In this document: one piece after another, positions 15,591-49,660 of the stretch
Position numbering within the stretch: position 1 is the stretch's first letter
Layout: each line of letters begins with the position of its first letter
NCBI GenBank assembly: GCA_031213475.1
Contig: JARUPZ010000012.1
Span: 9,568,727 to 9,632,726, forward strand
Origin: Nereocystis luetkeana
Taxonomy: Eukaryota > Sar > Phaeophyceae > Laminariales > Laminariaceae
Length of the DNA: 64,000 nt
Direction: 5' to 3'
The notes under the pieces: generated by a model
Seen by the model: only the letters and a program-made list of their open reading frames with translations
The model's database searches: none
Told to the model about the DNA's origin: nothing
Translations under genes and position numbers: made by a program

Positions 15591-15702
15591 AAGACCCGCT
15601 TACAACACTGCAATCTATCTGCATCGTACACTTGTTGTCGTCCTGCTGCGTGCCCGTCGCTGCTGCCGTCCCTCCTGTCCGTTGCTGTGGTCGTTCCGGC
15701 AG

Positions 15703-15796
15703 CATCAACATCATGGGGCTGGTGGGACTGGCGGGAGGGGGAGTGCAGCTGTGGCTCATGAAAAGGCGACGGGCAACGGGCAAACGCTTCATTTGA
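15703..15796 (+). CDS. Gene A, last exon
   Basis: The acceptor TCGTTCCGGCAG ends at 15702. The first base completes exon 10's serine codon and the frame then reads INIMGLVGLAGGGVQLWLMK.. to a TGA at 15794-15796. The end is basic (KRRRATGKRFI), a likely cytosolic tail after the last membrane segment. A second copy at 30871-30964 keeps the frame, the stop position and nearly every residue; most changes are conservative or silent. That conservation is the best evidence that this exon is translated. Confidence 0.75.
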
Positions 15797-15862
15797 GTTA
15801 GTTTTTTTTCACCGCCTCATATTTTGTGTTTCATTTCGTGTGACACATCAGCGGCAGCACTA

Positions 15863-15966
15863 TTACGGGGCCCATAGTTGACAGAACCAACCATTGTTAG
15901 TAAAAATGGGCAAATATATAGGTTTTTATGTATTCCATAGGTCCTATTAACTATGCTCCCCCGTAA
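15863..15966. mobile_element. 105-bp-family MITE in the gene A 3' flank
   Basis: TTACGGGG..CCCCGTAA, 104 bp, TA on both sides. The homologous flank of the duplicated exon at 30.97-31.1 kb lacks it, so the insertion came after the duplication or was lost there. Confidence 0.85.
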
Positions 15967-16693
15967 TAGCACCAGTACCATCAGCCACGGTGGAGGCTAC
16001 ACCACCAACACCACCACCAGCGGCGGCGGCGGCGGCGGCGGCGGCGGCTGCGGCGAGCAGCGGAGCTTACCTTACAACCTGTTCGTTCGTCAGAATTTTC
16101 TTGAGATTTTTGCTTGGAGCGATTTCATCTCTGGCTGCTGTCGGTAGCCGTCGGCGACGGCAGCGGCAGCACTATTTAGTATTGCAATCAACCAAGAGTT
16201 GTTGTCTGGTTGTGCTGTTGAAGGTGCCGATAAACAGTGTCGAGTGCAGCGACGGGCCTCTTGCGTGATTTGCTGATTGGTGGGCATGGTACAAATCGGT
16301 GCGGGAGGGATTCATTTGCGATGCAAGGGGGTCCGTACGGCGTAGGCACAGACGCAACATGATCCTACCCGTACATGCTGGCATGCTGCAGGGTGCTTAC
16401 TCACTCGCTCACTCTGCTCGTGTTGGATACGATTTGATAGCACCAGAGTTTGCCAACCACTGTTCTGGTCGCTACTGGTAGTTTGCCAACCATTGTTCTG
16501 GTCGCTACTGGTAAACATCTCGGGGTCCGAAGGGAGTTAGTGGTGTAGTGCTGTTTGTGTGCTTCTGTGTGTTGCGTTCCGTTGTTTTTGCAACCAGAGT
16601 AGTATATATTCTCACGGGATCCGTGGCAGCTCGGCCACAGTCGGTCTTCACGAAATTATTAAACTGCACTACTGCTCTATTTACGTTTTACCG

Positions 16694-17045: not shown

Positions 17046-17149
17046 CTGCGTTGACGGGGTACAGCTCCTCGGACACGTAGTTGACCCTTTTTTACAGCTG
17101 GAAACTTGAAGCGAACGCAATTCCAAGTACGGTAGCGGTCTTGTCTCTC

Positions 17150-19340: not shown

Positions 19341-19819
19341 ACCAAATATATATGCTTTATTATTACAGTAGTAAATACCGGAATACAAAGGGGGGCATTA
19401 AATATTTGTGGATGTTGTGTGTGATGGGTCCTGATTGCTATGATGGTCCTCCGTGATAACAAAATGCCATCTATGGGCGTGAGTACAAGGACCGCTTGGT
19501 CTTCATGTTAACGTCTTGGCGGTCCTCATATTTCCTTCCGATGGCTTTGCACATATACATCGGATCCAGCGACGTGGGGTGGTTCCTCCACATACATTGA
19601 GGAGCCTCGTTATTATTATGTAGTTGGGAATGTTTGGGCCGAAAAGCGCAACTAACCCCCTGCCCCGTCATATATATGTATATACTTACGGCTGTACCAC
19701 CTCCCTCGGCTGCTCCCCGGCCGGGGTGGAGCTCCGGCCTGCGGCTTCCCCAACACGTGCTAGAGCTCCCAGTGGAGCGCGGCCTTGACCTTGCTTGCGC
19801 GTCTAACTAGCGTTCGAGC

Positions 19820-22800
19820 ATGGTCGAGCCGGCGGTGATGGCCAGCGATATGGCGGAAAAATTTCTCGCGGATTTTTTCCACGCGGCAGTATTGCCTGCG
19901 GTAGCCGTGTCGTATCACCGTCGCGGAAAGCGTGGAACTCGTAGCGAACGGAGAAGAGAGGCTAGGATCCACGTGAGTAAGCACCCCATTCGACGTCATC
20001 TAGGAGATGATGGGCGTCGAGGCGCGTTGGGATTGCTGCCCCCAGCACGTCGGAACCTCGGCACGAACCGGGCCGGGCGAAAAAACACGGAACGGAAGAA
20101 ACCCACCGCCTGGGAAAAGCGGAGGGTAGAGGAGAAACAACACGCTGCACGGAAGAAGAGGAGGCAAGGTCGGAAAGGTCGCAGAGAAGCTCGAAGGTTA
20201 CGCTCAGATGCTAGGGCTAGGTACAGAGCTGGGGAACTCGTCGTGGGTACGTTCAATGTTCGCACACTCGCCTTCAACGGCAAAAATGGCATCGGCCACA
20301 GCGAGGTCATCATGAAGGTATGCCAGGAACTAGGATGCGATGTCGTAGGTCTCCAAGAGACTAGGCGAGACGGGCATAGCACGTTCACAGCAGCTGGATA
20401 CACGATTTTTTGCTCTGGAGCAGACGGCAGCAAATACGAGAGGAAGGGCACCCATGGTGTAGGACTAGCAGTCAGGGAGTCTATTGTGGCAGGTGTGGGC
20501 AAGGATGGTCTCGAGGTGGAGTGCGTTAGTGCCAGACTGATGAAAGTTCGCATTCAACTTGAGGGCAAATCAAATGCTGTTTCTTTTGTTGTCGGCTATG
20601 CGCCGATACTGGATGCACCCGTTCGCGAGAAAGATCAATTCTGGAACGAACTGAACAAAGTCGTCTCGGGGGTCCCAAGTGGGGATCACCTACTTGTACT
20701 CTTGGATGCAAATGCTCGCACCGGCAAGCGAGAGAGCGGATGTGCCGGCAGTAAGGTGATGGGTAAATACGGGCGCGATGAATTGAACAACAACGGAGAG
20801 CGACTACTCCTCCTCGCAGATGACAACAGGCTTGCGCTCCTCAACACGTTCTTTGCCACACCTACTCGCGGAGTGTCGTACACTTTCCAATCTCCAAACT
20901 CCGGGAAGGGTCAGTGTAGGCTAGACTACATCCTTACTCGGCAAGTTGATCGACGCCTGGTCCGCAACATGACAGTACGGAAACCCCCAGAGGATCGGCA
21001 TGAATCTGACCACAACCTCGTGGTCTGCAATATTCGCCTCTTGGGTCGGTTCGCGCCGAATCGGAGGGTAAAAGCAGGCAGCGGAAAACGAGCTATTAAT
21101 CTACAACGGTTGATGGCAGACCCCGGTCTCCGAGCGGACCTCAATAGGGAGATAACCAAACTTACCCCCCCACCGCCTGGTACAATTGGGAGTGTCGATG
21201 ATAAGGCAACTGCTCTGGTGGAGACCGTGCTGTCGACTGCTGCTAAACTAGCACCTCATACCAGTCGAAAACAAGGGCCGCTGGGCTGGTGTACGCCCGA
21301 AGAGGTAAAAGCAGAGGTGCACTCACGATGGCAGGAGAAGGAAAATGCGAGGACGCAACTACGTGCTAACCCGGAAGACAAAAATCTGCGAAAAGCTGTG
21401 AAGATTGCCACTAAACAGCTCAAACGTGCGAGGACGGACGGAGTGCAGAAGTTCTTCGAGGAATACGTCCGTCAACTCGAAAGGCGTATCCAAGAAGGTG
21501 ATCAGTTTGGGTTCTACAAGCACCTTAAGGGGATGAATGTGGAAGGAAAGAGGACTTTCCATTCGCAGTACATCAGGGACGAGGAAGGTAGATTACTACG
21601 AGACGTAGGCCTCATCCGGGAACGATGGGTAAGGTGGTTCCATAAGCTGCTAAACACAAGGTCATCGACCCTCGATCCGACTATCGTCGATGAGCTCAAG
21701 GTCTGGCCCTCGTGCAGTCCGCTGGACGACGTCCCGTCTAGATACGAGGTGGAAGACGCGATCAGGGCGATGGCGAACCGCAAGGCGGTTGGGCCTGATG
21801 GTCTCCCAGCTGAACTTCTGAAGGTCCTGGCCGACGAAGGAGACTCGGACACCTTGGGAAGCTTCTACGAGATTATCGTCGCTGTGTGGAGGGGAGGGGT
21901 CGTGCCGCAGCAATGGAAGGATGCAACGATTAAGGTGCTGCACAAGAAGAAAGACAGGACGGAGTGTGGTAACTATCGTGGCATTTCCCTAGTCGCGCAT
22001 GCCGGCAAAGTGCTCCTCAAAGTCATCGCGCGCCGACTCAGCGACTATTGCGAACGGGAAGGCATCCTGCCGGAGGAGCAGTGTGGCTTTAGGCCCGAAC
22101 GATCGACGGTCGACATGATGTTCGTGGTGCGACGCTTGCAGGAATTGGCAAGGAAGAAGGACACTCCGCTCTTCATGTGCTTTGTCGACCTCACCAAAGC
22201 CTACGACTCCGTCGACCGAACCCTCCTGTGGGCTGTCTTGGCTCGCTTTGGGGTGCCACCTAGAATGCTCACCGTTATCCGCCAATTCCACGACGGCATG
22301 CGAGCATGCGTGCGGCTGGATGACGGCGAGTGCTCAGATATGTTCGACGTGAAACAGGGCCTACGGCAAGGGTGTGTGCTCGCGCCATTGTTGTTCAACA
22401 TGTTTTTTACAGCGGTGCTGCGTGTGGCGGAGAAACGTTTCGCTGCTGATAAAGCCATCACGGACAGCTTGGTGCAACTCCAACAAAAGCAGGAGAAGTA
22501 GAAAAAGAAGAGGGGGAAGGCACGGGTCGGGCACGCCGACGGACAGGGGAATGATAAAGAGGCCCAGACACTGTGGGCTATGCTCTATGCCGACGATGCA
22601 GGCATAGTATCGAGATCACCCAACGGCCTGGAGAGGATGATGACGGTGATCGTGTCTGCATGTGCCGCTTTCGGCCTGACGGTCTCGGAGGCCAAGACGG
22701 AGATAATGTGTCTGCAAACGAAAGATGGGGGGAACGTGCCGTTCACCGTCACCGCCGCCGGCCAAGTGTACAAACAAACGACCGAGTTTGTGTATCTGGG

Positions 22801-23599
22801 CGGGGCTATCAGCGCAGATTGGACGGGCAGAAGTGTCGAGGTAACGCGTCGACTCCAGAGGGCATGGGCATGCTTCGGACGGTATAAGATGGAAATTTAT
22901 GACCGCCCGGGTGTGCGCCTACGCCTGAAGGTGCGAATGCTGAGAGCCGAGGTGATCGAAACGTTGCTCTACGGTTGCGTTACTTGGAGCCCGAGCAAGA
23001 CTGATTACGGTAGGCTACGGGAGGTCCACCACAAGATGCTCCTCCGATGCATCGGGTGGCGAAAACGAAAGCGCGAAGACCACATTCTATCCTATGCTAG
23101 CGCGCTTCTCAGGACAACATCTGAAAGCGTTGAGACGACGGTACGCAGACGTAGGCTCTTGTTTGCGGGCTTTGTGACACGAATGGGAGAGGAGCGCCTG
23201 CCGAGGAGGGTGATGTTTGGGGAGATGGTTGGGGGTAAGGGTTACTCCGGAGGACAGGAGTGGGACTGGATGAGGTACCTTGAGGAGGACCTCAAGGAGT
23301 TCGGCATCAAGCTCGAAGGGTGGCGCGAGACAGCACAGAAAGCCGGCAGATGGTTCCAACGGGTCGAGGAAGGGGCGGAGGCCTTCATGCGGAAATGGCA
23401 TACAGATGAGAAGGAGGCATCGGCAGAACGGCATAGAATAGCTGCGACCACGACCACAGCCGTTGACGCCAACGCGAGTGTGCAGAATGGCAGGGAAGAG
23501 GGGGGGGGCGAAAGGGGGACGAGGGGGAATGGCGGGGGGGGGGAGGGGAGGCGGTCTGCCCAACAGACTGAAGCCTGGTTATGGCCATCATCGTCATGA
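19820..23599 (+). pseudogene. LINE polyprotein (endonuclease + reverse transcriptase), one in-frame stop
   Basis: The frame stays open for about 1,260 codons apart from one TAG at 22499-22501. An AP-type endonuclease begins near residue 141 (GTFNVRTL..), with the ETRR motif after GLQ and an SDHNLVV motif near residue 396. The reverse transcriptase follows: NYRGISLV near residue 715, FVDLTKAYDSV near 787, GLRQGCVLAPLLFN near 845, and the YADD catalytic box near 922, just after the stop. The C-terminal part carries KAGRWFQRVEEGAEAFMRKW, which recurs in fragments at 27.7 and 41.5 kb. The stop falls between two RT motifs, so readthrough or a dead copy must be assumed. The start codon is chosen only as the first position of the open frame. 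RTE clade placement is from motif style. Confidence 0.8.
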
Positions 23600-24086
23600 T
23601 GCACTCCTTTCTTTGGGACCCAAGTAACTAGCATGGTGCCATCTGGGCAACTTTGCGTGTCTGTATGCTCCAGTGCCTGCCTTTGGTATTTTCTTTCCCC
23701 CCCGCCCGTGATTATCGCTTTTTGTCCCTTCTTTGTTTTCATTTTTCTTTCATTCCCGTTTGTACCTCTTTGTGTCTTTGTTAGTATGGTCCGTTTTGCC
23801 TTGCCTTTTTTTCGCGTTTTGCTATCTGCGTCTGTTTTAGTTTTGTTTTTGTTTTTGTTTTGCTTAGCTTCATCTTCTTTTTTTAGGTTTTTGTCTTCTA
23901 TTAATAGTCTCCTTTTTGCTTCCCTGGTGTCCGCAGTGGTGGAGTGCGTATGCCTGTTTTTTGTTTTTTTTTTGCCTCTGTTTTTACTTGAGGTATTTCT
24001 TCCACTCCAGAGTTATTGGAGCCTGTCCTGCGACCACGGACTGCATTGAATTGTGAGTTAATGTGAGAACAACAACAACAACAATA
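19820..24086 (+). mobile_element. RTE-like LINE, nearly full length
   Basis: A single long coding frame (19820-23599) with an endonuclease and a reverse transcriptase is followed by a T-rich 3' part and an AAC-repeat tail at 24068-24086. The 3' end is confirmed by an inverted, 5'-truncated copy at 24397-24610 that stops at the same kind of AAC tail. The true 5' end is not defined. Confidence 0.8.
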
Positions 24087-25212: not shown

Positions 25213-25748
25213 CTCTTCGTAGTCGCTGAATTTATAGTCAACAACTCTACTAACAGATAGTAGTATTCCCACTTGATGGTCTCCAGCAGATATTTCGGGG
25301 AAATCGATCCCGAACACCGCACGCATCAGTATATATATAGATCGTTGCGGAATGGGACTCAACAGATAGATGTAATCTGCACATATATATCATGATCTAC
25401 CGGACGTATTAATCTGTAACAGACGCACGGCACATAGCAGCAGTGATGCAGAGAGATACCGGGTAAGGAGAGGGTCCCGCGTCCCGGATGGCCAACACGA
25501 ATCCTAAACCTGGTTTTCTGCTGTATGAATGGTATGCGCAGCCCGTCAACAACAACAACACACAAACAACACGACGGTGCGCCAGCACGCATGATTGTCC
25601 CCTGTCCCCCACCGTTTGCAACATATTATTATTCATCGCCTGGAGAGTGGAAACCTCTTTTTTCAAATTTTGAAAACATTTCTTAGAAAGAATCAACAAG
25701 TCAGCGAGCGACGTGGTGTGGGAGAGAATCGGGCCTCCATTACCCAGC

Positions 25749-25947
25749 ATGGCGGCCGCATTGCCTGATAATGGTACGGGCATGATATGGCCAACACATG
25801 ACCAGCTCAAGATTTATGCGCGCAAAGCTCGAACGAGAATCAGGAAATTGGAGGAACAGAACCGGTCCCTGCTGGACAAGGTCCAGGAACTGCAAGTGGC
25901 ACAGCTGCAGCAGAGCACCGCTGAGGCCAATCCTGCTGCTGATGATG
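25749..25947 (+). CDS. Copy of gene B exon 1 (start of suspected chimeric gene)
   Basis: ATG at 25749, donor GTGAGATG at 25948; 199 nt ending one base into a codon. It encodes DQLKIYARKARTRIRKLEEQ.. followed by NRSLLDKVQELQ, a clear coiled-coil start. It is homologous to 46969-47170: the same ATG context (CAGCATGGCGG), same phase, same donor and about 60 percent identical residues in the coil. The upstream flank (25450-25500, GTCCCGGATGGCCAACACGA) and the first 200 bases of the intron also match the other copy, so this is a duplicated promoter-plus-exon, not a retrocopy. What follows it differs from gene B. Confidence 0.65.
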
Positions 25948-26119
25948 GTGAGATGCTTGGGTTGTGTGTGCTTGTCACGTGGCACATGTGCTCCACAGGA
26001 ACTTCTCCGGCACCTTTGTGAGCGAAGAGGGGGGTCTCTACTGCAGTCTGCCTCGTGCGTGTGCATCTGGCCTGATGAACTGTGCCATACACAACTCCAA
26101 CGACGTCTGCACAGCAGTG

Positions 26120-26156
<37 letters not shown>

Positions 26157-26256
26157 CTTCCAGCAAAAATTGAGACTTGACTTCTGATGAGACCTGTCGT
26201 CCTTTGACTCTGGGTGTTTCTTGTTCCGTGTACCTCTGATCCGACGCTGTTAATAG

Positions 26257-26417
26257 TCGATTTCCGTTGGATGGTTCCCGCCGACGACCACCCTCTCTCG
26301 CGGTGTATTGACCGGGCGCGGCCTGCGCCTACGACGACACAGGTTCTCCGCAATCTACTGATGATTTCTGCCCTGTCGGCGATTTGGGCAAGGGCGTCTC
26401 GCCTCGCGCCACAGGAG
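26257..26417 (+). CDS. Candidate exon 2 of the chimeric gene
   Basis: The acceptor GCTGTTAATAG ends at 26256 and a perfect donor GTGAGT is at 26418. The 161-nt stretch begins with the two bases needed to complete the codon left by the exon at 25749-25947 and ends on a whole codon. It encodes FRWMVPADDHPLSRC.., a proline/threonine linker, then a hydrophobic segment LRNLLMISALSAIWAR. It does not resemble any gene B exon and has no clear match among gene A exons. Phase agreement has a one-in-three chance of being accidental. Confidence 0.45.
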
Positions 26418-26722
26418 GTGAGTGCGTTTTCCGTGGTTATTCCGGGTGCGTGCTTTCCGACCTCCAAACCCCGCCCCGGGAGCGTCGATCGTCCTGCCGG
26501 CACCACCGTCGTGCGGTTTTTGCGCGGGCGGCCGTGTGTGAGATGCACGACATGTTTCACACCCCCGGCAAATACATGCCACCCAGATTTCGTTGACAAC
26601 TACGTAAAGTACGTACATAAATAAATGTAAACAGATTTTTCACGTGAAGGGTACTGCTGTACGTATTCCGAAGAGTTCTCTTTTTTACCGTAGGTTTTCC
26701 GTGTGCACGAACTAAAAACAAG

Positions 26723-27419
26723 AGGACCTTTAACAATCTGGGAGAAGGGATCTTTAGGTTGGTAGGCTGTTCGGATGTTTTGGTTCCTGTTGGGATCAGG
26801 ATACGGGCGAAGACCCAACCCCACCCCTGACTCTAACCCTAACCCTAACCCTAACCCTAACCCTGACCCCAAACCGCAGCCAAAACGGGCCAAAACTCGC
26901 CATAAACGCGGCTGCGCCGAGTTTGCATCGAACCAGGAAATTTCTCAGTTGCGGACGACGATTCCGAAGTGCAGACCACGCTACACATTTTTCAAGTTAA
27001 AAACATCCCCAAAGATCCCTTCTCCCAGACTGCTAAACCGACCCCTAAAACCCTATCCCCAAAGATCCCTTCTCCCAGACTGCTAAACCGACCCCTAAAC
27101 CTAGGTCGGTTTAGCAGTCTGGGAGAAGGGATCTTTGGGGATGTTTTTAACTTGAAAAATGTGTAGCGTGGTCTGCACTTCGGAATCGTCGTCCGCAACT
27201 GAGAAATTTCCTGGTTCGATGCAAACTCGGCGCAGCCGCGTTTATGGCGAGTTTTGGCCCGTTTGGGTTGCGGTTTGGGGTCAGGGTTAGGGTTAGGGTT
27301 AGGGTTAGAGTCAGGGGTGGGGTTGGGTCTTCGCCCGTGCCTTGATCCCAACAGGAACCAAAACATCCGAACAGCCTACCAACCTAAAGATCCCTTCTCC
27401 CAGATTGTTAAAGGTCCTG
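26723..27419. mobile_element. 697-bp foldback palindrome containing telomere-type repeats
   Basis: The left arm (26723 to about 27044) and right arm (about 27104-27419) are near-perfect complements of roughly 320 bp, meeting near 27097. Each arm holds several CCCTAA/TTAGGG units (26833-26868 and 27279-27317) and starts AGGACCTTTAACAATCTGGG. The left arm has a partial 48-bp duplication next to the centre. No transposase is encoded. It is probably a non-autonomous foldback element. Confidence 0.85.
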
Positions 27420-27649
27420 TCGCTCGACCTCTCAAAAATAGACTACGCACGCTCTTTGGGATGTTGTAAGACTTCGCTCTTTGCACGGTTATTCACTGTA
27501 AGGACCAACGTGCCGGGTACGGGAGCATAACAAAACAAGCCCAGCAAGGCGACAACACGAACAGCCAGATACGTGCTGCAGTAGTTTTATGCCACATGAT
27601 CTGCCATTATATCCTTCCTGCTCTCTTGTTGAAAGCAAGCAGTGGTGTC

Positions 27650-28050
27650 GAGTGTCAGTACTGCCGCTGTCGCGTCCCCCCTAGGGGAAAACATGAGACA
27701 AAATACCAAACAAAACTCAACTACAGCTGTAGAATTCCGAACGGCAATACGTGGCACAGGTTCCTTTTATAGCTCGAACCGGTGCATTGCCGCGCAATCC
27801 GCTATTCATTTCTTTGCTGCGTTCGTCGACAGCAGTATCAGTACCCCCCCCCCCCCCTCTCCCCACTATGTCGCCGCTCGTGGCGCCCTCTACTGCTGTG
27901 TGGCGTAGACAGCTCCTCTTCACCCCGTTCCCAGTGTCACCTCGCCATGAAACGTTCCGCCGCTTCGACGACCCCTCGATACCACTCCCCACCCTTCGTA
28001 GCGGCGGTGGAACCCTCCGTAGCCGCGGTGGACCAAAACACCGCCTCTAC
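27650..28050 (-). pseudogene. RTE-like LINE 3' coding fragment
   Basis: In two - strand frames it encodes GGEWYRGVVEAAERFMARW and then TDTAVDERSKEM. These match the fragment at 41460-41740 (KWYRGILEAAERFMVRW and TAVDESRKEM) and, more distantly, the C terminus of the LINE at 19.8 kb. The frame is shifted between blocks. The + strand frame over the same region, which ends at a GTGAGT, is therefore probably not an exon. Confidence 0.7.
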
Positions 28051-28532
28051 CGCGAACGACGAAGGAGAGCTTTCCGTGGATCCCTCGGTGGCTCGAAACC
28101 CGTTGAGGCCGTCTGCTAGACATTGGGCCCCTCTCTGGTGAGTGCTTGATTGAGTAAAAATCGTGTTCTCCTGGTGTACGTGTACACTTTGTATGTGGTC
28201 TACGCACACGCTTTGTACGCTACTCGGAGTTTATCGACAGGCCCCTCCGCCTAAACTAAGTGGGCGGTGGCCGGGATCATACTTGGAAAAGTTGAAAACA
28301 AAAAACAAAGGTGTGAGAAAAATCTCAAGAGTCATCTTCGCAAGCTTGGCCAAATCGTAACTACTGGATGATAGCCTGTCGACGATGCTCAGCTCTATAA
28401 AATGCCACACAACTCTAGAAGTAAGTGTATATTTGTATTTTTTTGTATTGACCAAGTAAGTGCGGCGCTATTGACGTGAAGACTATTTGGGTGAGTATGT
28501 TGTAAAACGTTGCAGGTGATGTATATTACCAG

Positions 28533-28674
28533 GTATGGAATTACCGATCTGAAGATCGGACCAGCAGCGATGACATGCCGCGGATCTTTGCCGAAGTATC
28601 GCAACCACAACCTCCGTATCTTGCGGTCGTCGTCATCGCCATTGGTAGCGCACGCTTTTTATCTTCGGTGGCAC
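28533..28674 (+). CDS. Candidate exon 3 of the chimeric gene
   Basis: The acceptor TATTACCAG ends at 28532 and the donor GTGAGC is at 28675. It starts on a whole codon, as required after the exon ending at 26417, and ends one base into a codon. It encodes a polar start (VWNYRSEDRTSSDDMPRIF), then PPYLAVVVIAIGSARFLSSV, one membrane segment. The acceptor coincides with a copy of the recurrent TACCAGGTA motif, so a chance match is possible. Confidence 0.35.
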
Positions 28675-28729
28675 GTGAGCGTAAAGTGCCTCCCACGACG
28701 CCGTTAAACATCGGTACCTCCCGTGGCAC

Positions 28730-28990
28730 TGCCGGGTGGCTATCACCGCCGCACCTGGCCCTCTCGGGGGTCAGGTGGGATCAACATGTTCACGTGGTAC
28801 GAGCAGCCGGGTTTGCTCTTGCAAACGGGAGCGACGGGTTGCAGTGGCACCCGACACGTATTCTAATACACGTGGAAGTGTAGTGAGCTCAAGCTTTGTG
28901 TTTACCAATCCACCGGCCGATGAAACAGAAACAAACGAAGGGGAAGTGTGGTGAGCTTAAGCTTTATTTTCACCAATCCGCCAGAGGATG
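28730..28990 (+). repeat. Dispersed repeat, matched at 60745-60950
   Basis: Both copies share CTCTCGGGGGTCAGGT, TCAACATG, ACACGTGGAAGTGTAGTGAG and ACCAATCCGCCGGAGGAT-like blocks in order. The copy here ends in AAAC tandem units at 29005-29040. Confidence 0.6.
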
Positions 28991-29399
28991 AAAATAAAAA
29001 CAAACTAACAAACAAACAAACAAACAAACAAACAAACAAGCGTTAAAACTGATCACTCCCAACAATATTCGAACAATCGATCACAAAGAAAGCTACTTCT
29101 GTATACCCTGGAAGCCGACGTTTAAAAAAAAAAAACAATTATCACAAAACAGATACCGGTACAGTAGTAGTGAAACGTACTCGTAGAATATCACCGTTTT
29201 TTATTTCGCATGGTTGCTTCCTGGGCCTGGTCGACGCATTTTTCTATCCTTGCAACCTCCCACGAGGTATGATGGAACGGAAGAGGCGGGTTCCTCGCTG
29301 TGTGGGTGACGCTAGGATCACAACAGCCGTCTCGCCCAGCAAATGCTGTCAGGATGTTCCGATCTCCCACATGATTTGAGGTTTGATTATAAAGTACTT

Positions 29400-29600
29400 T
29401 TTTACTCTCTTGGGAGTGTTTTTACTTCCAAGGAAGTAGAATGATTTTGCTTCCAAAAATGAAACAGTTTACTTCCTTTGGAAAAAAAAATTCCATGGGA
29501 GTAAATTCTGGAAGTAAATCTTAAAGAAGTAACATTGAACTTCCATGGAAGTAAAAACACTTCCATGGAAGTACATTTTGGAACTAAAATGGAACCAAAC
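29400..29600 (+). repeat. Cluster of TTCCATGGAA palindromes
   Basis: About eight perfect or degenerate copies of ACTTCCATGGAAGT with short spacers, some joined as AAAAACACTTCCATGG. No gene is evident; 29040-29400 likewise shows nothing recognised. Confidence 0.7.
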
Positions 29601-29926
29601 AGAACCAAGGGAAAATGATGTGGTGGACTCGGATATTCTTACGTGCTGGCATCTGGACGCAGATCTCAACTTTAAATGTGGCACGTTTTCCGACGATAGA
29701 TTGGGCCGCCTGCAAAGGTCAAATATAAAAAAAATGTGGCATTTCTACGTCGTGTGAGTAAGTGAGTATCGATCAGAACACCAGAGGGATATTTGTCGAA
29801 CCGAAGCCCCGGACACAGCTGCTGTCCGTTTGTATGTACGAGTACGGGCGAAATGTATTTCGCGAACCAATCGGTATGGTGATGCTACATTCATTCATCT
29901 GCTCATCGACGCTGAGCACAGCCCAG

Positions 29927-30055
29927 GCGGTGTATACATACGTATTGGGGAGGCCTGTGCACCGCTCATTGGGCATCCCCCCCGTCCTCTACCTCTTGTT
30001 TTTTTTTGTCAAAAGGCTTGTCATCTCGCCAAGAAGAAAGTCTTTGCCGGCACAG
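29927..30055 (+). CDS. Weak candidate exon of the chimeric gene
   Basis: The acceptor GCACAGCCCAG ends at 29926. One frame reads a hydrophobic stretch (PPVLYLLFFFVKRLVI), but the frame demanded by the preceding exon is a different one, and no consensus donor is visible before 30055. It is listed because it is the only hydrophobic open stretch between 28.7 and 30.8 kb. It may be spurious. Confidence 0.2.
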
Positions 30056-30465
30056 GGTCTCCCTTCAGTCCCTCCTAATCGTAACGCCATACTCGTACAT
30101 AGGACAAAATAGTGATCGTTATCCACAGGGAAGATGAGTGTGGAGGCGGGGTGGGGTATACGATCGAGTCCGGTGCTGAACATTTTTTTGAGATTGCAAT
30201 TGCTGCGCAGACCGACTTTCACGCACCCCGCCCCGCTTGACTCGGCGAGACTAGACGAGATACCCCGCGAAACTGACTATTTTTGTTTCGGGTTTTGCGA
30301 GCGCGCTGCCCCGGCCGCGATGCGCGAGCGAGAGCGAAGCCCCGAGGGCGCAAGACGCCCGTCTCGATGATTCCCCACCGCCTGAGCCGAGCGGCGGAAA
30401 AAAAAGCCGGAGAAAGAAAGAAAACACAAATTTACGTTGCAAGAAAGTTTGCACACCTTGGATAG

Positions 30466-30735: not shown

Positions 30736-30870
30736 GAAATATGTCTACGATTTTTTTTCAACGTACAGCTGTTGTTTTATACCAGGTATAGTGATAATCG
30801 GCTTTTGATTGTCGCTGCTGAGTGTTCACCACTGTTGCCGCCCCTCTTGTCCATTGCCGTCGTTCTCCAG

Positions 30871-34830: not shown

Positions 34831-35053
34831 ATTATTTAGACTTGCCACCCGACAATGTGCAGCATGAGTTTTCGCGTTTATCAATCAAAACATTCCTAAG
34901 CGAAGAAATCTCCGTATACGAAGGAAACCTATACCCCGAGTCTATCTACCTTCTATGTCTACTTCCTTTTATGTTTTATCTACGATACTCTATGTGTTGT
35001 CTGTGCTCCCTCCTACATCTTAATATGTACTCGTTATTCCTATTCTTAAAATC

Positions 35054-38000
35054 CTAACCCGCATCCAAGCTCCATCCCCACGCCATCGGTGTGGGTCTGT
35101 CATCTCCCCACCCCCTGCTACTTCTCGATTCCTGACGACCCCTAAGCTGGAGTCTAAATCGTGATACCCTCCTCGAAATGGCGACCTGTGTAGTCACCGA
35201 GACGATTTGGAGTAGGCGTTCCTTCACCATTCCTTTCCTTCCCATCGACCCACCATTCCTCCTCCCCACTACACTAGCAGCCAGCTGGTCGATGAACTTA
35301 CTGCCCTCTACCCCGAGACGCCCTAAGCTTTCCACTGCCAAAGTGGCAAGTTCGTGACTCCGTTCGTCAAAGGACACATGTCCCGGACGAGCGTAGTGTT
35401 GGCGCTTGCGCGCCTCGGAGATAGAGGCAGCTGATCCATCTTGATCGGCACTGCCTCCTCGCAGGTGTATCTGCACTTGAGGGTCCGCATGGGTGACGTC
35501 CAGCAGGATGGACTTCTCCCTATACTCCCTATTAGGAGCATCCCGTAGACCTCTCCTGACGACAATTTCCCTTCGCAGATTTCGGTCTGCGGTGAATGGT
35601 TGGCCGCTTTCCACTTGGTATGAAATCCCCAGCCACTTCAACGTTCGGGACATCGCGTGGACGAGCGGTTGGTGCTGATGTACCTGCGCCCCTGCTCTGG
35701 GACAGATGCGCGCGTGGCGAGTGTCCGCGTCCACTGCATCGCAGCAGGGGCACCTCACTGCCACGTGTTCTTCTATACCAATGAGCCGTCTCCCCTTGCC
35801 CACACACTCTTCAGCGGGTATGACCCGGAGTGAGTTCGTTGGTCTCGCCCGAAGGCATGCCGTAGCTCCTGCCTCCTGTAGGCTCCTGTAGCGAGCCCTG
35901 GCGAGGGCTTTAGTTTCGGTCCCACCCATCGGGTCGCCCGGTCCGGGGGGGCGTGCTGTCTCCGGGAGCTCGTCCAGCGAGGCAGCGTGGGTTGCGTGCC
36001 GACGTTGGTTAACCAACTCACCCAACTTCTGTTGGACTTTGCGTGAGTTCGTGGTTAGGCGTCGTGTGCAGCCAGCATGTCGGTTTCTGGGGGTCTTGAG
36101 GCCCTGTCCCCCTCTGCGCCTAGACCCCATTCCAACCAAGAGTCGGGGGCGATGCCCGCCATCGCTTCCTGTGACACCACCCATGTATCCCTAATCTCCC
36201 GCAAGCTGTCTCCCAGCTGAGCAATGATGCTCGATTCTGGGAGCCCCCTCCTCGACTCATCGCCTAACTGGCCTGTGAGGTCTACGAGGGCCTCCGGCAA
36301 GGTCCCCACCCTACTCCCGATGGATGCCGACATTCTCCTTGCTTCTGTCGACGGCAGCCCTAACCCTCCCGCTCCCGTAGAAAGGCGTGCTTGGGCTTGG
36401 TGGTAAGGTTTGAGAGCCAGCCCACTATCCGGGCACCCCTCCTGGAAAAACGGTTGTGCCTCCGCCGCTCCCGGTAGTTCGAGGATTTTCTCGTACGCCC
36501 GCTGGGCCCCGTTGTCAGCTCTTTTACATGCTTCGAGGGACAACCCCGGGTCCAGAGCCCTTTCGAGGTAACTCGTCCGTTACCCGAGAGATTCGACGGG
36601 GACGAGGGCCGCCGCCTGTTTGTCGGGCATGTTAGCGAGGCAGCGTGCAAGGTGGTCCGCGCCCCCATCCCTCACTACCTCCATTGCTCGCCCCCGCACG
36701 TACTCTTCCGTGCCGATCGGGACACCCACTGCCGTCACCCCACCGTCGTCTGCGATGCAGACCTCAACGCTTTCAAGGAGCGAAATCTCCTCCATCGTCG
36801 GGGCGTGCCCTTTCGGTGGTAGTGCCACTGTTATGGTGGCGTTGACCACAATGCCGATGTCATCTAGCTCTGGTCGGAGGAAGGCGAATGCTCTAATCGT
36901 GTTGGCCGTGATCCCTGTAAGGCCGAGAGAGACATCGTCCATGTACACGAAGGCTTCCACGCCTTCTCACTCGAGTTCCTGCCGGAATCGCTTCAGCCCC
37001 TGTCGTAACGCCGGGCAAACATTGCTGGTCCCATGTGATCCCCTTGCTGGACACCGCTGGAGCAAGCGATCGTCCTGATCTCTCCTGAATCCACCCGGAA
37101 AAACACGTCGACTGGTCTTGTGCCGTAGCACTCGGCCACTAAAGGCGTGAGCGCTGGCACGCATTTTGCCACCTCTTCTAGCACCGCCGTCCCTTTTACG
37201 GTGTTGAAGGCGTTGGAGCAGTCCGTGAGAACAAGCCAGTTGCCCGTCTCGTGCAGCACGCTATCCCTCAATTCCACATGCTCTACTCTTCCGGGTACGG
37301 CGACCCCAAACTGCCTTACCTCTCGGTTTACCTCCTCCAACCTCGGTCGCCACTGTCGCATAGCCCCTGCGGTCATGAGCCTCATACCCACGCAGACCGG
37401 CCGGCACTTTTCCCCCAACGCAGTGAGGCTCGACTGCAGGAAGAGCTGCCAGACCTCTGGCGGGAACTCGTCCGGCTCATCGACGATTTTCCGCCAGAAG
37501 GCTGTAATACCACTTCTGAACTCGTCTCTGCCGATTTCGGTTGGAATGATGGATTGTAGATGAGCAAATCGTTGACCGTCGTTTCCGGGGCCTTAGAGGG
37601 CGCTCCGGGAGTTGACGACGCCGAAGAGCACCTCGGAGGCATACTCATCGTCAGGGCGCCACGGGGGGGCGTTTCCATCTTCCACCTCGGTGCCGCTCGC
37701 TAGCACTGCGGCCGCCGCCGCCGCGGACGCGGCGGCATGGTCTTCGGGGGGAAACTTGGCCATTCCACGTTTCCTCGTTCCCCGCTGATCGTGGTTCTTT
37801 CCAGAAGTTTGCTTTCTGCCACTTTGACCGTTCCCGCGAGGCGACACGCAGGCGACGCTCGTTCAAGTTTCGCCTCTTCCGAAGCTTCCTGGGCGGTATG
37901 CCGTTGTCTCAAGCCCTCTCTCATTGTGTACGCTATCAGCCATGGGAGCAGGAGCACTATGTTCCCGCTCTCCACCAGCGTGAACCTCTGTCGCCTCTCA

Positions 38001-38793
38001 TCCGGTCGTCCGGTGAGTGGAGCAGGGCTGGCATGAGGTGCCATAATTTGATCGCCCGCAGGAGCGAGTTCGGTGTCGCCGATTCTCGGCTCGGCCGGTG
38101 CTCTCCCATAGCGTGGTTGAGGAGGCCAAGGGCATGAACGCTCAAGGGCACATGTGCTCCTGCCAGCTGCAGCTGTACTGTCTTCCCGGTTGCGAAACGT
38201 TGCCCCAGGTCCTCCAATGAAACGGCATCGAGTGGTGGCCCTATGCCCAGGCTGTTGTGGTCCCATCCGTACCACAGCCCCCGGCTGTGTAGGTCCTCGT
38301 CATCTATGCCCCCCCCTCCCATCATAGCCGCCCGATTGCGAAGACCCGGGTCAGCTTGGACCGCTGCCTCCAGTGCGTCCCGTCTGGGATGCCGAGCTCC
38401 GTAATCGGCGGCTGGACAGCAGAGTGGTGCCGGTGCCGTGCCTCTCGCTAGGGTCTCTACCACACAACGAGCGTGGAGCACGTGGCGCCCTTGCCCAAAT
38501 GGAAAACGTACCACCCGGTGCCCTAGCTGAAGTGTTTCACCGCAGACCCCGCATGCCACTCCACCTGTGGTCATGCCAATGAAGGCCCGGGGGTGCGTCC
38601 CGTTCCCTGCTCCCCTCCCCTGCGACCTGGGAGATCCTCCTGCCGGAGCCTCGCCGTTTGGTGTCTGGTGTCCCCTGTCGTTTTCTGTTCCTCTCACTCC
38701 ATTTCTTCGGCTCGTTCCTCTCTGTACACCTCTCTCCACCAGTATTTTGCGTTCCTCCGGTTTCCACTTCTCCTTTACCTTCCCTATACCCAC
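35054..38793 (-). pseudogene. Decayed LINE with C-terminal zinc knuckle and nuclease-like domain
   Basis: Read right to left on the - strand. At 38793-37957 the frame encodes a cysteine/histidine finger (CGVCGETLQLGHRVVRF.. then HARCVVETL). At about 37560-36990 lies reverse transcriptase with RPVCVGMRLMTAGAMRQW, VLTDCSNAFNTV and SSGVQQGDHMGPAMF. At 36960-36580 it continues with the YMDD box near 36945. At 36184-35054 lies CPCCDAVDADTRHARICP, a CCHC-type knuckle, followed by SILLDVTHADPQ, like restriction-type nuclease domains of early LINE clades. The blocks lie in at least four successive frames and stops interrupt them, so the copy is dead. The N-terminal finger may belong to a separate ORF1. 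Confidence 0.75.
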
Positions 38794-38794
38794 C

Positions 38795-39655
38795 CCCCTT
38801 TCCGCTAGCTTAGCTCCTTGTACTCGTCCCCGCCTCTCCCGTCCTCTCCATCCCTCTCGGTCCCTCGGTCCGTCTTGATCTCTCCGCTCCCCGCTCTCTC
38901 CACAGTCCCCCTGCCTCCCTTGTTCTCTCAGCTACTTGCACACCTCCCGCTTCCCCATGCCCCGCCGTTCCCCCCGCTTCTCCTGCCCCCCCCCGCCCTC
39001 CCTGTCCCCCTCTCCCTCCCCCAACCTGTTGGCGGGGGCGCCGCCCTATCTCCTCCCGACGTTTCCCCCACTCCAGCCGCCCCCTCCATTCCCTCCTCCC
39101 CCCCCGCCCCTCCCACTCTCCCTGCCCCCCCTGTTCCACTTGCTCCCCCCGCTCCCCTGGCTCCCCCCGCCCCCTCCCCTCTCCTCGTTCCCCTTGCTCC
39201 TTCCATCATCCTTTCTCTCCCCCCCCCCCCCGCCCCCCCTGCCCCCTTTCTGGCCAGCCAACATGAGTGCTGCACTATCCCTTCCCCCCGCTACCCCCTC
39301 TCTCGTCGCTCCCCCCTCTCCCTCTGCTCCCCCCCCTCCCCTCACCTCCCCCGTTCCCCCCACTCCTCCCGTTCCATCCGCCCCCCCTTCTCCCCCCACT
39401 CCCCCGGCTCCTTCCGCCACTCCCACCCCCCCCACCCCCCTCGCTTCTTCCGCCGCCCCCTCCCCCCCCCTGGCCGGATGATGAAGGTGGCGCACTACCC
39501 CTCTGCCTGGGGTTTCGCTCCGTACTTGTGTCCGCCCCTCTTCCTGTGCTAGCTGCTCGTGATCTTCCCCCAGATTTCCTCGATCGACCTCGAGTATCCC
39601 TGGCGAACCCCCCCCCCCCCCCCCTCCCCTCATTCCTTGGAACTGTCACCTCGGG
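38795..39655 (+). repeat. C/T-rich low-complexity tract
   Basis: Over 800 bp of CCCCTCCC, CCCGCTCCCC and similar. Several long proline- or glycine-rich frames cross it on both strands and reflect composition only. It may be the expanded 5' region of the decayed LINE on the - strand. Confidence 0.75.
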
Positions 39656-39827
39656 TGAGGTCGATGCGGCCTCTGCCCTTGCTCGGGGCGTTCCGGGCTG
39701 TTCCTCTTGTATGGTATCCCTGTTTCCCTCGTTCTGGTGGTTATCTGTGGAGCCCGAAGCTTCGTGTTCTTGGTCCAAGCCACCTTCTCAACATCTTACA
39801 GTTTTTGAGTCTTCTTTGTTGGCAACG

Positions 39828-40010
39828 CCCCGGTAGACTGTACGTACCCGCCAACGGTTAGGGTTTGGTCAACGTGGGCTGACTTATGTTCCCGACGAAG
39901 CCCACCTCGCTCACTCGAGCTCTCTCTCTCAACTCGTTCGAGGAGTAATAGTAAGAAAATCGTGAACTACAAGCAGTGTGCCCTATTATCCAGCGTCGGC
40001 ATCCCTGTGT
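39828..40010 (+). repeat. Direct repeat (CCGCCAACGGTTAGG type), first copy
   Basis: Matches 40645-40840: CGGTAGAC.GTACGTACC, GCCAACGGTTA, GTCAACGTGGGCTGA, CTCGAGCTCTCTCTCTCAAC and ATCGTGAACTA occur in the same order. Confidence 0.78.
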
Positions 40011-40384
40011 CTCTTACCAGTTTATACCTCTGCAAGCTTCTTCACCTTTGGCTCCGTCGGCAGGATTGGTCACCACTGAGCTAGGCGCCTGCTACCTCTC
40101 ACCCTCCCCAACTCCTGTTCACCCTGTGAGCATCATGAGAGAGGCTTTACGTTTTTAGGCTTTACGTTTTTGAGTGCCGAGGCTTTTTTTTTTCGGTTAC
40201 TTCTTAGTGAGGCGTCGGAGCCTCACTACGAGGTGTGGGATAGATCTATCACCTCTCTATTCTGTGTTGAATACCCACATCTCCGGCCTCTCTTCCCGAT
40301 TTTGGGATGGCATCATATTATAGTCATTGTCCTTTATCGTCGCGTGGTCTGCATCTACTGCAGCAGTACGGCTATTCAGGGTGG

Positions 40385-40640
40385 GCTGTTGCGATGGAGT
40401 AGCACATCCATGGTATAAGAACGTACGTATCTGTATGCGAATGTATGGTTGTACGTAGCGCTTTGTTGTTAATTTACCCAAAGAAATGATAATCTTGTAT
40501 GGTTACACTTAATTAGCATTTGGGGAATATATCCGAATGACTATCTTATACGAGTATGGTTACAGGTGCGTAGCGCTTTGGGAATATTCTGTGGAGCCAG
40601 TCTAGAAAACTCCTTCGTGAACAGAGCACTATGTTACTAT
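40385..40640 (+). repeat. Direct repeat flanking the decayed LINE, right copy
   Basis: Right-hand partner of 34541-34830. It lies between the two copies of the CCGCCAACGGTTA repeat. Confidence 0.75.
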
Positions 40641-40644
40641 TTTT

Positions 40645-40840
40645 ATTTGTTGGCAAAATCCCGGTAGACCGTACGTACCTGCCAACGGTTAAGTATTGGT
40701 CAACGTGGGCTGAATTGCGTTCCCAACGAAGCCCACCACGCTCACTCGAGCTCTCTCTCTCAACTCGCTTGAGGAACAGTAACAAGAAGATCGTGAACTA
40801 AGTTACTACGAGCAGTGTGCCCTGTCCAGGATCGACATCC
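40645..40840 (+). repeat. Direct repeat (CTGCCAACGGTTAAG type), second copy
   Basis: Partner of 39828-40010. Together with the flanking repeats it makes the order A, B, A' on the right and B' on the left of the LINE. Confidence 0.78.
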
Positions 40841-41395
40841 CTGTCTCTTTTTACCAGCTTACTGACTGTACCTCAGCAAGCGTCTTCACAGTTTCCACTT
40901 TCTTGGCCCAAGGCAGTACAAAATACCATAACAACACTATTCCCGCATTCCCCCAAAGCGCATCGACTTCCTAAAAGTCCTTTTTCGCAATGCTTCGCAG
41001 ATTTCTGTGAATTTCTGTGAAGTGGCTGCGACATTAAGTGATCCCCCCCGCCTGACCACGCGCATATATATCATATACCGATCATACTTACTTGGAGTAC
41101 AAACATCCCATGAGATCGTACGGCGTACATACATACACAGTACAGCACCGACCGGTAATACACACATACCTGGTATGATAATAGTTTGGGTACATAGGTA
41201 AAATATCTCGGTAAATGGTGGGGGTGCAAGTGAGTACACGCAGGGAAGGAGAATTGGTTCGATGAAGTTAGTGGTATTCGATGAATTATGTCAGCTTTTT
41301 CATTTTGAATGGATAACGCCCTGCACAATGTCAGAAGGCAAAAAAATAAAATAAAATAAAAAATAGTTTGGGTACGTCGTATATACGCAGGTACC

Positions 41396-46095: not shown

Positions 46096-46289
46096 AGTTT
46101 ATAAGGTCCGGAAGGGTGGAATACGTCGTACGAATATCATCTGTAACGAGCTTATATATATCGGCCATTGGAAAGTGTTCAAAAATATAATCCTTGAGGA
46201 CAGACAGACAGACAGACAGACAGATTTGCATTTATCGAAACAGAGACTCAGTTCTACAAACTGAAAATACGAAAATACCAACTACTACC

Positions 46290-46622
46290 AGTTTTTTTTG
46301 CTCATCCTATTTATTATGTTCGCCCATCTTCTTTTCTCTCTCCTTCCAACTCGTACAACTCAGATCCGGGGTCACATAGCAGGCTCTGCTACCCCCTTCC
46401 CGCTACGGTACGTGCCTTCATTTTTATCGCGAGAAGATTTGAGCCTTTTCTTCCCTCGTCGACTCGCATCGAAGTGTGCCTACACACGCTGCAAGGCGCT
46501 CTCAACAATTGAATCCGTTTTTTATTTTTTTGCAAATAAAGTCAAAGTCCGACCCACCTGGGGCTCGAACCCAGGACTCAAACACAAACAAGTAGAATTC
46601 TTGAACTATTAATACCGGGGCG
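46290..46622 (-). mobile_element. SINE with a different tRNA-like head
   Basis: On the - strand the head (46622 to 46553) has a T-arm-like CCTGGGTTCGAGCCCCAGG, then the shared SINE body order: GGACTTTGACTTT, TCGATGCGAGTCGACGAGG, GCGATAAAAATGAAGGCACG. The body matches the other SINEs only loosely, so this is a sister family that took another tRNA. As a tRNA gene the acceptor stem does not close well. Confidence 0.6.
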
Positions 46623-46968
46623 ACCAGTATGGTGACAGTACGAGGTATTAATACTCGGGTATTTGGGTACCCGAGATACCCTGCAAGACATCAAGTACAT
46701 AACAGCATTGTTACAGAGGGGTATCCGGCATTGAGTACGGAGAGGATTCCGGGTCCCGGATGGCCAGCACGATCTTCTACGAGTACCTGCCTGCATCTGC
46801 TGGGGATGACTGGGGGTGAACGCGCGAACCCCCCTCTCGTGTCCCCTGCCCCCCTCCCTTTGTAAAACATTCATCACGGCCTACGTAATGGAAACCTTGA
46901 AATCACAAGAAAAAGGTCATCGGGCGACCGGGGGCAGAACAGTCAGAGTTGGGCGCCTATCACTCAGC

Positions 46969-47170
46969 ATGGCGGATCAAGCCTCTCACGAGGTGGCCGC
47001 ATCGCCTGATGGTGCGGGCAAGAAAGAATCCACCGAGGACCAGCTCAGGTCGTATGCTCGCAAAGCTCGATCGAAAATTAGAAAATTGGAGGAACAGAAC
47101 CAGTCTCTGCTCGCGAAGGTGGAGGAAGCTACACAGCACAGCAGCATTTCGGCCAATGGTGCTGGTAATG
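46969..47170 (+). CDS. Gene B, exon 1 (long coiled-coil protein)
   Basis: ATG at 46969 in CAGCATGGCGG; donor GTGAGATG at 47171. The 202-nt exon ends one base into a codon. After a polar start (ADQASHEVAASPDGAGKK) it encodes DQLRSYARKARSKIRKLEEQ.. then NQSLLAKVEE, a coiled-coil start of golgin-like style. Its copy at 25749-25947 keeps the start, the phase and the coil. The next exon recognised in phase is 8.6 kb downstream, after a very repeat-rich intron; small exons between could have been missed. Cellular role unknown: long coiled coils often act as tethers or scaffolds. Confidence 0.7.
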
Positions 47171-49660
47171 GTGAGATGAGTTGTGCGTGCTTGCCTTGTG
47201 TATCCACAATCGACAGATGCCTGTCTGGCGCCGCTTTCAGCGACGAGGGATATCTCTGCTTTACCTCGTGTCTGTGCGTCTTGGTCGGATAATGTGTGCC
47301 GTACCCGTGCTTCTGCCTTATCTCCCCGCATGTCGGATGTTGAGACTTGAGTGAAAAAAAGACCGCAAAAAAACTGGCAGAGTGTGTGCACGTGTGCTCT
47401 GCCGTTGTTTCGTGCTCGGTGTGCTTGCGATGTCGCCCGCGGGTATGTACGACGTCTACACGAGTAGATACTCGTAGCACCCTCGTGTTGACGTACAACA
47501 GCAATATTCTGCCTACCGATGTGTACACGGCTGGTGCTGCAGCTGCTACTGTTGCGGCTGCAGAGACAGGCGAAACATTTTGGGCGTGCAAATCGACCAG
47601 CCTCCGCGTGCGTCGGTCGCTCGCTCCGCTTGCTCACGTGCTTGATCGGCCTAGATCGTCTCATGGTTTTCGGACTGTAGTGTAAAAGAAAACGTAATGA
47701 CCCCTGCTTGCGTAACGGCTGCGACAGTATCCATCCATCTGTCCCCGGTCCCCAAGCCCCCACGGTCAAATACTCATCATACCAGGTATAATATTATGTA
47801 TCATGCGTACTGCTGCTCTACGTAGAATCAGTCCAAAAACGCCAAATACGTCCAGCCCAGCAGTACTGCTGTAGCGTATACTGGTGAGCTCGTACACCCA
47901 CCGCTCGATGCTGTACACAAACAGCAGCAACAAGCACGCCATCGTCCTCAACAGACACTGACAAAAGGTCGACCGCAACGCTCGTTCAGCGGAAGTCAAG
48001 CAGTGCAGCGGAGGACATATAGCACTATCTCACGTGTGATAAGCTCTCCCTGCACCCCTTAAAGCCTATCAATACGGCCAAAAACTACGCGAAAACGCTG
48101 AAACTGCGATTTCGTGTACGAGGTAGGCGACTTGGACCTGCCAGAAAGAAGAATGAGGTCGTAGTTTACAAGTGTACCAATAGCCGGGCGGAGGAGGAAG
48201 TAGAGGCGTAGATGTGCCCGTGTGGCAAAGCAATACTGGTAGAGAGTAGAACTCACATATTATTACGGAGTAGGAGAATGTGAAGTGTACAAGGAGGAAC
48301 GGGATGTGTTGGAAGAGGAGATGAGAGCAGTAGATACTGGTAGCAGCGAAAAAACGATCGCTATCCTGTGGAGATGGTGGCCACAAGCGGCGAAACAAGA
48401 AGGGGATAAGATTGGCAAAAAGGTTTTACCTGGTATGTGGTATGTGCAAGGTGCTTTGTGGTATGTACAAGGTGCTTCGCTCCGCGGGCGGCATACGCCG
48501 CCCGCTACGCTCGCTCAGGAAGGAAAAGTACATCAAATTACTATGCGAAGCAGATAGAGGCCCATGATTGAATATGCAAGTAGTTTTTTTATGATCGTAG
48601 TTGCAAACTGGCGACTTGATAGTGCCAAGAGTCTCGCCGCCATGCTCCAGGAGAAAACAGCTCGGACTTCAAATACGCTTCGCGTCACGGGCGGTTCCGC
48701 CCTGCTACGCTCGCTCACATGCCGTACGTACGTACATACCCTAGGAAGGGTACTTTTTTTTCTTATTTCGATATGCTGTATGTACGACAAAAGAGAAAGC
48801 ATAGCACGGCACAGCAGCACCGCAAAAACAATGTAAATGAAAACGAAAGTTTCGGGAAGAAAAAAAATGTGTGTCCATCTCTCGTGATAATTTTCTGCCT
48901 GATTGGAACACCTTGCACCGGCCAAAAAAATAAAAATGTCGAACAACAGAGCTTCTCTCTCGGCCTCGTAAGCCGCCCGCCCCTCTCGCGACCACCTCGC
49001 CACCGATTCGGTCCGGGTAAAGCTTTCCTTACTCTCTGCCACAGTGAGTCCCGTCGCCCGCCTCGCGTTAAACCCGGTGCTCACCGTGGCCGCCGTTCGC
49101 CGGCTCGACAATGTAGTTGCTCAGACTGGGTGTAGCTCCCTCTGTGATTTTCAGCCCGGTCGCAAAAATAAGCACCGCTTGAATTTTACCTTGCAATCCC
49201 GAAAGACCTTTTCATACTCGTACAGACACAATCGCATTATGCAGATGGAGGCCAGACAGAGCCCATTCATGCTTCCCTCGTGTCTCAAGGCACACGCAAC
49301 GCCTAGGCACGAAAGCGGCGACCGCGTTTATTTCGACCCCCCCTCTACCCGCCAGTACCCGCTGACACCCGCGACGGCGCTGGGCTCGCCCGCGGTGCCG
49401 TGCTCCGAGTACACGCACGAACACGAAGCGAAAGAAGAAGAAAGGGAAAAATAACCGAAAGTGCCGAGAGAAATGGAGAAAACACAAAACTGCTGGAAAG
49501 GTCGGGCAAGTAATAAAAGGAGGCGATTTCCGAGTGGGAGCTCTGAGAGGCCAGGGATGTACCAACCGAGCACGCTCAGAGAGTGAGATATCTGTAAGTA
49601 GTTCTATATAGAAACAACGTAAAGAGCGTCTAAATGTTGGAGATGTCTCTATTAGGAGTA
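47171..49660. other. Gene B intron 1, part without recognised elements
   Basis: The first 150 bases match the intron after 25947, then similarity ends. A short GGGCGGCATACGCCGCCC hairpin is at about 48486. No splice-compatible + strand exon was found here. Two - strand open stretches (47766-47999 with LLRTMACLLLLFVYSIERW, and 48533-49111) look partly protein-like but have no support. Confidence 0.45.
48533..49111 (-). CDS. Doubtful open frame inside gene B intron 1
   Basis: 192 codons without a stop on the - strand. The first third (RRTAATVSTGFNARRATGL.. then RWSREGRAAYEAEREALLF) has the composition of a real protein; the rest is low-complexity. It has no ATG start, no recognised domain and no relative in the window. 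It may be an old transposon fragment. Confidence 0.15.
   Translation of the reverse strand: MSSRRTAATVSTGFNARRATGLTVAESKESFTRTESVARWSREGRAAYEAEREALLFDIFIFLAGARCSNQAENYHERWTHIFFLPETFVFIYIVFAVLLCRAMLSLLSYIQHIEIRKKSTLPRVCTYVRHVSERSRAEPPVTRSVFEVRAVFSWSMAARLLALSSRQFATTIIKKLLAYSIMGLYLLRIVI

Follow-up and report, generated by a model that had tools for sequence, protein, structure and literature searches.

The window analysed here is a 64,000-nucleotide stretch of the genome of the brown alga Nereocystis luetkeana (contig 12, positions 9568727-9632726), in which two neighbouring genes, here called A and B, are separated by a partial copy of each: a copy of the start of B (B′) and, downstream of it, a copy of the end of A (A′). 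This arrangement, A, B′, A′, B with all four blocks on the plus strand, is very probably the product of one old tandem duplication of the interval between the genes, an event that we take to include the variant in which a larger unit was duplicated and trimmed later. In keeping with a brown-algal origin, a search of the genome with the EsV-1-7 domain (PF19114), whose family is expanded in brown algae, yielded 150 matches among the best 150 scored of 1710 candidates, those listed lying above the curated cut-off, and 0 of 14 control genomes gave a signal. The genes, the blocks and the stretch expected to hold the duplication junction are as follows.

4425..15795, plus strand: gene A, C-terminal exons; a hand model of nine exons joined by eye, the last at 15703-15795
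15635..15859, plus strand: block A, comprising the end of the last intron (68 bp), the last exon (15703-15795) and the 3′ flank; matches 30809-31022
25432..26178, plus strand: block B′, comprising a copy of the upstream region, exon 1 (25749-25947) and the start of intron 1; matches 46697-47352
26179..30808, no strand assigned: 4.6-kb stretch expected to hold the duplication junction
30809..31240, plus strand: block A′, comprising the end of the last intron, the last exon (30871-30963) and the 3′ flank; from self-BLAST and alignments
46697..47352, plus strand: block B, comprising the upstream region, exon 1 (46969-47170) and the start of intron 1; matches block B′
46969..63997, plus strand: gene B, encoding a long coiled-coil-like protein; open stretches judged by eye, extending past the window

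The hand model of gene A encodes 618 amino acids (aa) of a hydrophobic, multi-pass-looking membrane protein. Its exon phases match, some of its exon ends are uncertain and its start lies outside the model; the reading frame carries over from the penultimate exon (14152-14309) to 15703. The A protein matched no Pfam family at an expectation value (E) of 1 and gave no convincing match in the PDB, where the best E was 0.45. Exon 1 of gene B supplies 202 bases of coding sequence, its 3′ end falling in phase 1, and later coding-looking stretches lie near 57.7 kb, at 58740-59963 and at 62.5-64.0 kb, continuing into the next 9.9 kb. Pfam and PDB searches with gene B returned weak matches only, all of them below cut-off.

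We compared the window with itself by BLAST, and then with more permissive scoring for weaker matches. The end of A recurred between the genes (15635-15799 against 30809-30967, 80.0% identity, E 7.6e-34), as did the start of B, both in its upstream region (25432-25500 against 46697-46772, 76.3%, E 3.0e-7) and further downstream (25751-26090 against 46992-47304, 68.3%, E 3.0e-26), and all three matches were plus/plus. Under permissive scoring the A pair lengthened to 15635-15859 against 30809-31022 (74.7%, E 1.2e-36), and the B pair gained an additional piece (25596-25656 against 46840-46897, 70.5%, E 0.004). These matches bear out what a first-pass annotation, made from the letters of the window, had read there: a recurrence of the end of A at about 30.80 kb and of the start of B at about 25.44 kb, on the same strand and in the order A end, B start copy, A end copy, B start. 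Its spacings for the two units, 10.0 kb from A to B′ (unit 1) and 16.1 kb from A′ to B (unit 2), are close to the distances that we obtained between block starts, 9.8 kb and 15.9 kb.

Over their whole lengths blocks B and B′ are 68-79% identical by segment. With gaps excluded, identity in the A pair is 79% at the end of the last intron, 85% in the last exon and 83% in the 3′ flank, and in the B pair it is 78% upstream, 79% in exon 1 and 74% at the start of intron 1. For each of these six sub-segments, as for a conserved core of B exon 1, the global alignment scored above all 200 mononucleotide shuffles. The likeness of A to A′ extends beyond the exon into 68 bp of the last intron and into the 3′ flank, and that of B to B′ takes in 270-317 bp 5′ of B’s ATG and 180-230 bp of intron 1. 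This reach into introns and flanks indicates that the duplication occurred at the level of DNA, and that the pairs reflect neither exon conservation nor retrocopying.

A different reading of such pairs is that the exon ends are scattered widely through the genome as a dispersed repeat family, and this was not what we found. Searches of the genome (465 Mb in 1987 contigs), which score only the best candidates so that absence of a match is no proof of rarity, placed the DNA query 46730-47350 at two places, both inside the window, and the query 15600-15860 likewise at two, namely blocks A and A′. A protein query with B exon 1 also returned two places, from 3 candidates. In addition, the blocks had no match at E 1e-6 in a sample of 27 other loci of this genome (222,017 bases), which is not fully random, as 7 of them were chosen for holding a repeat also found at 17152-17325 and one adjoins the window. 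With two places per block and no match in the sample, the blocks are unlike a repeat family, and we rejected that candidate.

The structure of the copies suggests how they could have formed. The outer copies continue into longer gene models (that of A without its 5′ end, that of B without its 3′ end), and the inner copies are truncated, as predicted if the breakpoints lay in A’s last intron and in B intron 1. Upstream of A′, a protein self-comparison with the low-complexity filter on gave no match to A’s earlier exons at E 1e-4. We propose that one old tandem duplication would have copied a segment running from inside A’s last intron, across the space between A and B, to inside B intron 1. The outcome would be A-B′-A′-B, with both original genes whole on the outside and a new junction joining a 5′ part of B (its upstream region, exon 1 and donor) to a 3′ part of A (acceptor, last exon and 3′ end). 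At its birth two intron halves would have been fused into a hybrid intron, making a chimeric B′-A′ transcript possible. LINEs (long interspersed nuclear elements), MITEs (miniature inverted-repeat transposable elements) and other repeats would later have filled both units and the junction independently, hiding the diagonal that a self dot plot would otherwise display. Both the single event and the past chimeric transcript are inferred.

A single event predicts that the two pairs are of one age. Of the noncoding sites, 21/110 differ between A and A′ and 99/414 between B and B′ (P 0.31 by Fisher’s test, a weak one on few sites), and synonymous divergence (dS) is 0.30 and 0.35, respectively. The pairs thus appear similar in divergence and their ages agree, as far as a weak test on few sites can tell. 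We weighed against this the possibility that the end of A and the start of B were duplicated locally in two separate events, both copies landing between the genes. Pooling coding sites with the noncoding ones leaves the pairs slightly different (35/203 for A, 137/594 for B, P 0.09), a point that weighs against a single event and favours two, as does the lack of a continuous diagonal between the end blocks, to which we return below. B′ also sits between copies of a repeat that could be imagined to have carried it:

24880-25214: telomere-hexamer repeat, 5′ of B′ (self-BLAST)
26722-27046 and 27105-27418: telomere-hexamer repeat, an inverted pair 3′ of B′ (self-BLAST)

This flanking repeat is about 330 bp long, contains inner ACCCTA telomere-like hexamers and is 90-93% alike between copies, each of which has 1-2 matches in the 222 kb of other genome sequence. 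We rejected it as the carrier of B′: its copies are more alike than the B pair, at 74-79%, and so younger than the split of B from B′, which makes them unlikely movers of B′ unless they have been homogenised. Two events would, moreover, have had to match by coincidence in their strand, order and interval and roughly in their age, and we regard them as very unlikely. An assembly artefact, in which a heterozygous region was kept twice, would likewise place adjacent stretches in tandem, but the copies differ by 15-26% substitutions, many gaps and different insertions, far too much for two alleles, and this explanation is scarcely credible.

One of those insertions can be placed in time relative to the duplication.

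15862..15968, no strand assigned: TA-flanked MITE in the 3′ region of A, a member of a family; absent from A′

The sequence on both sides of this element aligns to A′ without it; a CAG microsatellite in A′ makes the precise position of the empty site uncertain. In this alignment the MITE is an insertion that followed the split of A from A′. The middles of the two units hold the following features.

16585..16673, plus strand: weak colinear anchor downstream of A; matches 31149-31240
19811..24046, plus strand: LINE of unit 1, with endonuclease (PF03372) and reverse transcriptase (PF00078); frame broken by two stops
34540..40900 (approximate), minus strand: decayed LINE of unit 2, with a weak RVT_1 match and repeated flanks; its span is partly that of the first-pass annotation

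For the LINE of unit 1, the Pfam matches are to its first two pieces, searched apart, and a third piece in the same frame (23600-24046) was assigned by position. The RVT_1 match in unit 2 (36999-37592, minus strand; E 7.2e-5) scores 23 bits and so falls short of the curated cut-off, 29.6. Repeats identified by similarity cover 7,086 of the 9,953 bases from the stop of A to the start of B′, and 4,389 of the 16,005 bases from the stop of A′ to the start of B, or 9,591 once hand masking is applied to all of 34540-40900. Because only about 2.8 kb (unit 1) and 6.4 kb (unit 2, hand-masked) are left unmasked, the original space between A and B may have been short.

Two results, one from the unit interiors and one from the junction stretch, weigh against a single duplication of the whole interval. 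No single-copy likeness links the A blocks to the B blocks, except for the weak anchor lying some 0.8 kb away from A (16585-16673 against 31149-31240), which is 65% identical with an E of 0.03 unmasked and 0.02 after repeat masking, and whose local score is 21, the best of 1000 dinucleotide shuffles reaching 16. Two other matches in the masked unit interiors were both at chance level (E 1.2 and 3.3). Just outside the blocks, the score of 25215-25431 against 46000-46696 was reached by 23 of 500 shuffles and that of 31241-31404 against 16674-17142 by 25 of 500, and neither was counted. The expected junction of B intron 1 to A’s last intron was not found in 26179-30808. This stretch had no BLAST match to A’s last intron at E 1, and within B intron 1 it had repeat-like matches only. 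The local score of 26179-26720 was reached by 11 of 500 shuffles when it was set against the 1.1 kb that directly follow block B and by 26 of 100 against the whole of B intron 1; neither was counted.

Two candidate links were dropped on other grounds. The pair 17152-17325 and 31794-31959 (66%, E 2e-13), tried as an anchor of the diagonal, is a dispersed repeat: a genome search with 17060-17372 had 1095 candidates, and the 40 that were scored gave 42 matches, the non-self ones being 71-83% identical. The copies of this repeat, at 17152-17325 and 31794-31963, are colinear in both units apparently by chance. Similarly, 29600-30808 scored above all 200 shuffles against A’s last intron, yet it is purine-rich sequence of low complexity and was not counted.

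In light of these results, the history given in the first-pass annotation, one tandem duplication followed by independent insertions, stands as the best-supported reading on the strength of order, strand, truncated inner copies, two places per block, similar divergence and the absence of the MITE from A′, but two of the arguments offered for it fail. A self dot plot had been expected to join 15.6-26.2 kb to 30.8-47.3 kb by a diagonal, and between the end blocks none was seen beyond the one weak anchor. The 6.1-kb difference in spacing had been equated with the size of the unit 2 LINE, and it cannot be credited to that element alone because unit 1 carries a LINE of its own.

The 4.6-kb junction stretch, in which no A or B sequence is recognisable, is also what might be expected had all or most of A and B been duplicated and the sequence running from within intron 1 of B′ into the last intron of A′ then deleted, a variant of the single tandem duplication that would leave a structure identical to the present one. 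It would require a further deletion that began and ended in introns, and in 26.2-30.8 kb the protein self-comparison (same filter) turned up no remnant of any other exon of A or B at E 1e-4; we consider it quite unlikely. Two similarities were seen in the junction region. One, between 28761-29016 and 60772-60966 in the span of gene B (74-81%, same strand), could mean that B′ once reached deeper into B; each of these segments has one partial match in the 222-kb sample, and the pair is probably a repeat. The other lies at 27853-28011, part of an open frame that ends at a donor-like site near 28.1 kb, and resembles 41449-41603 on the minus strand (68%); it is possibly an element or an exon not recognised so far.

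We then considered the coding state of the inner copies, which bears on whether they are in use: B′ might supply B with an alternative promoter and first exon, A′ might give A an alternative last exon, or the two together might make up a chimeric B′-A′ gene; such use would be compatible with any of the histories above. B′ retains an ATG, 66 open codons and a GTGAGATG donor in B’s phase, and A′ retains an acceptor, 30 codons and a stop, so placed that A’s penultimate exon joins A′ in frame. Five of the six scoring schemes give coding gaps of 1, 3, 3, 13 and 21 bases, and the sixth gives 3, 3, 4, 8 and 21; in the segment alignment all of them fall in B exon 1, and the codon alignment contains whole-codon gaps only. 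The ratio of nonsynonymous to synonymous change (dN/dS) is 0.44 for the A exon (P 0.12) and 0.31 for the conserved core of B exon 1 (P 0.04), a core that was picked after the alignment had been inspected.

These features favour use, but others do not. Over the whole of B exon 1 dN/dS is 0.78 (P 0.34), and the depletion of frameshifting gaps relative to noncoding sequence, with gaps counted singly, falls short of significance under all six schemes (P 0.08-0.13). Coding sequence is hardly more conserved than noncoding, with differences at 52 of 273 and 120 of 524 sites, respectively (P 0.24). A B′-A′ splice would pair a phase 1 donor with a phase 2 acceptor, such that A′ is read out of A’s frame, the product remaining open for about 155 aa in total. 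The substitution pattern fits the expectation for one constrained and one relaxed copy, and weak use would be compatible with it. We infer that B′ and A′ are now mostly relics. That the inner copies are in use at all seems rather unlikely, and it is unlikely that selection maintains the pair as a functioning gene or as alternative gene ends, be it a chimeric B′-A′ gene or second ends for B and A.

Partial tandem duplication that makes chimeric genes and gene fragments is already known as a class, and the present example is unsurprising in kind. Tandem duplications in Drosophila yakuba are reported to form chimeric genes and gene fragments, structures that alter expression (Rogers, Shao and Thornton 2017, PMC5460883). 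The locus described here resembles those cases in that a tandem duplication captured parts of genes, whereas those cases are polymorphic and come with RNA evidence, and ours dates far back (dS about 0.3), has filled up with repeats, comes from a brown alga and is known from sequence alone. A conserved partial gene duplication has been described in Triticeae grasses (PMC6092874), where a partial gene copy is likewise reported to have persisted over evolutionary time; silencing and overexpression were used there, in contrast to the sequence evidence here. Literature searches with brown-algal terms listed nothing relevant.

The locus can be read as a fossil showing how the ends of genes would be split and recombined when the breakpoints of a tandem duplication lie in two introns, and it illustrates that insertions are able to erase the diagonal that would prove such a duplication. 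The copied ends are of interest for the working-looking splice signals and reading frames that are still present. If the inner ends were expressed, they would represent alternative gene ends or a chimeric gene born by duplication in a brown alga, and if the inner pair were kept by selection, one duplication would have given both neighbours a second end.

The MITE in the 3′ region of A belongs to an abundant family of palindromic elements of about 110 bp, whose copies are mostly 75-95% alike; the copy in A is the TA-flanked one noted above. Each copy has 18-31 overlapping matches in the 222 kb of other genome sequence. Within the window, self-BLAST placed copies as follows.

2967-3076, 3288-3400 and 3488-3600: palindromic copies of about 110 bp
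15859-15969: copy in the 3′ region of A
18168-18276 and 18558-18666: palindromic copies of about 110 bp
32700-32810: palindromic copy of about 110 bp
52307-52416, 54305-54415 and 61487-61596: palindromic copies of about 110 bp

Gene A also spans an inverted repeat at 8797-9038, 242 bp long and 93% complementary, which lies between two exons of the hand model.

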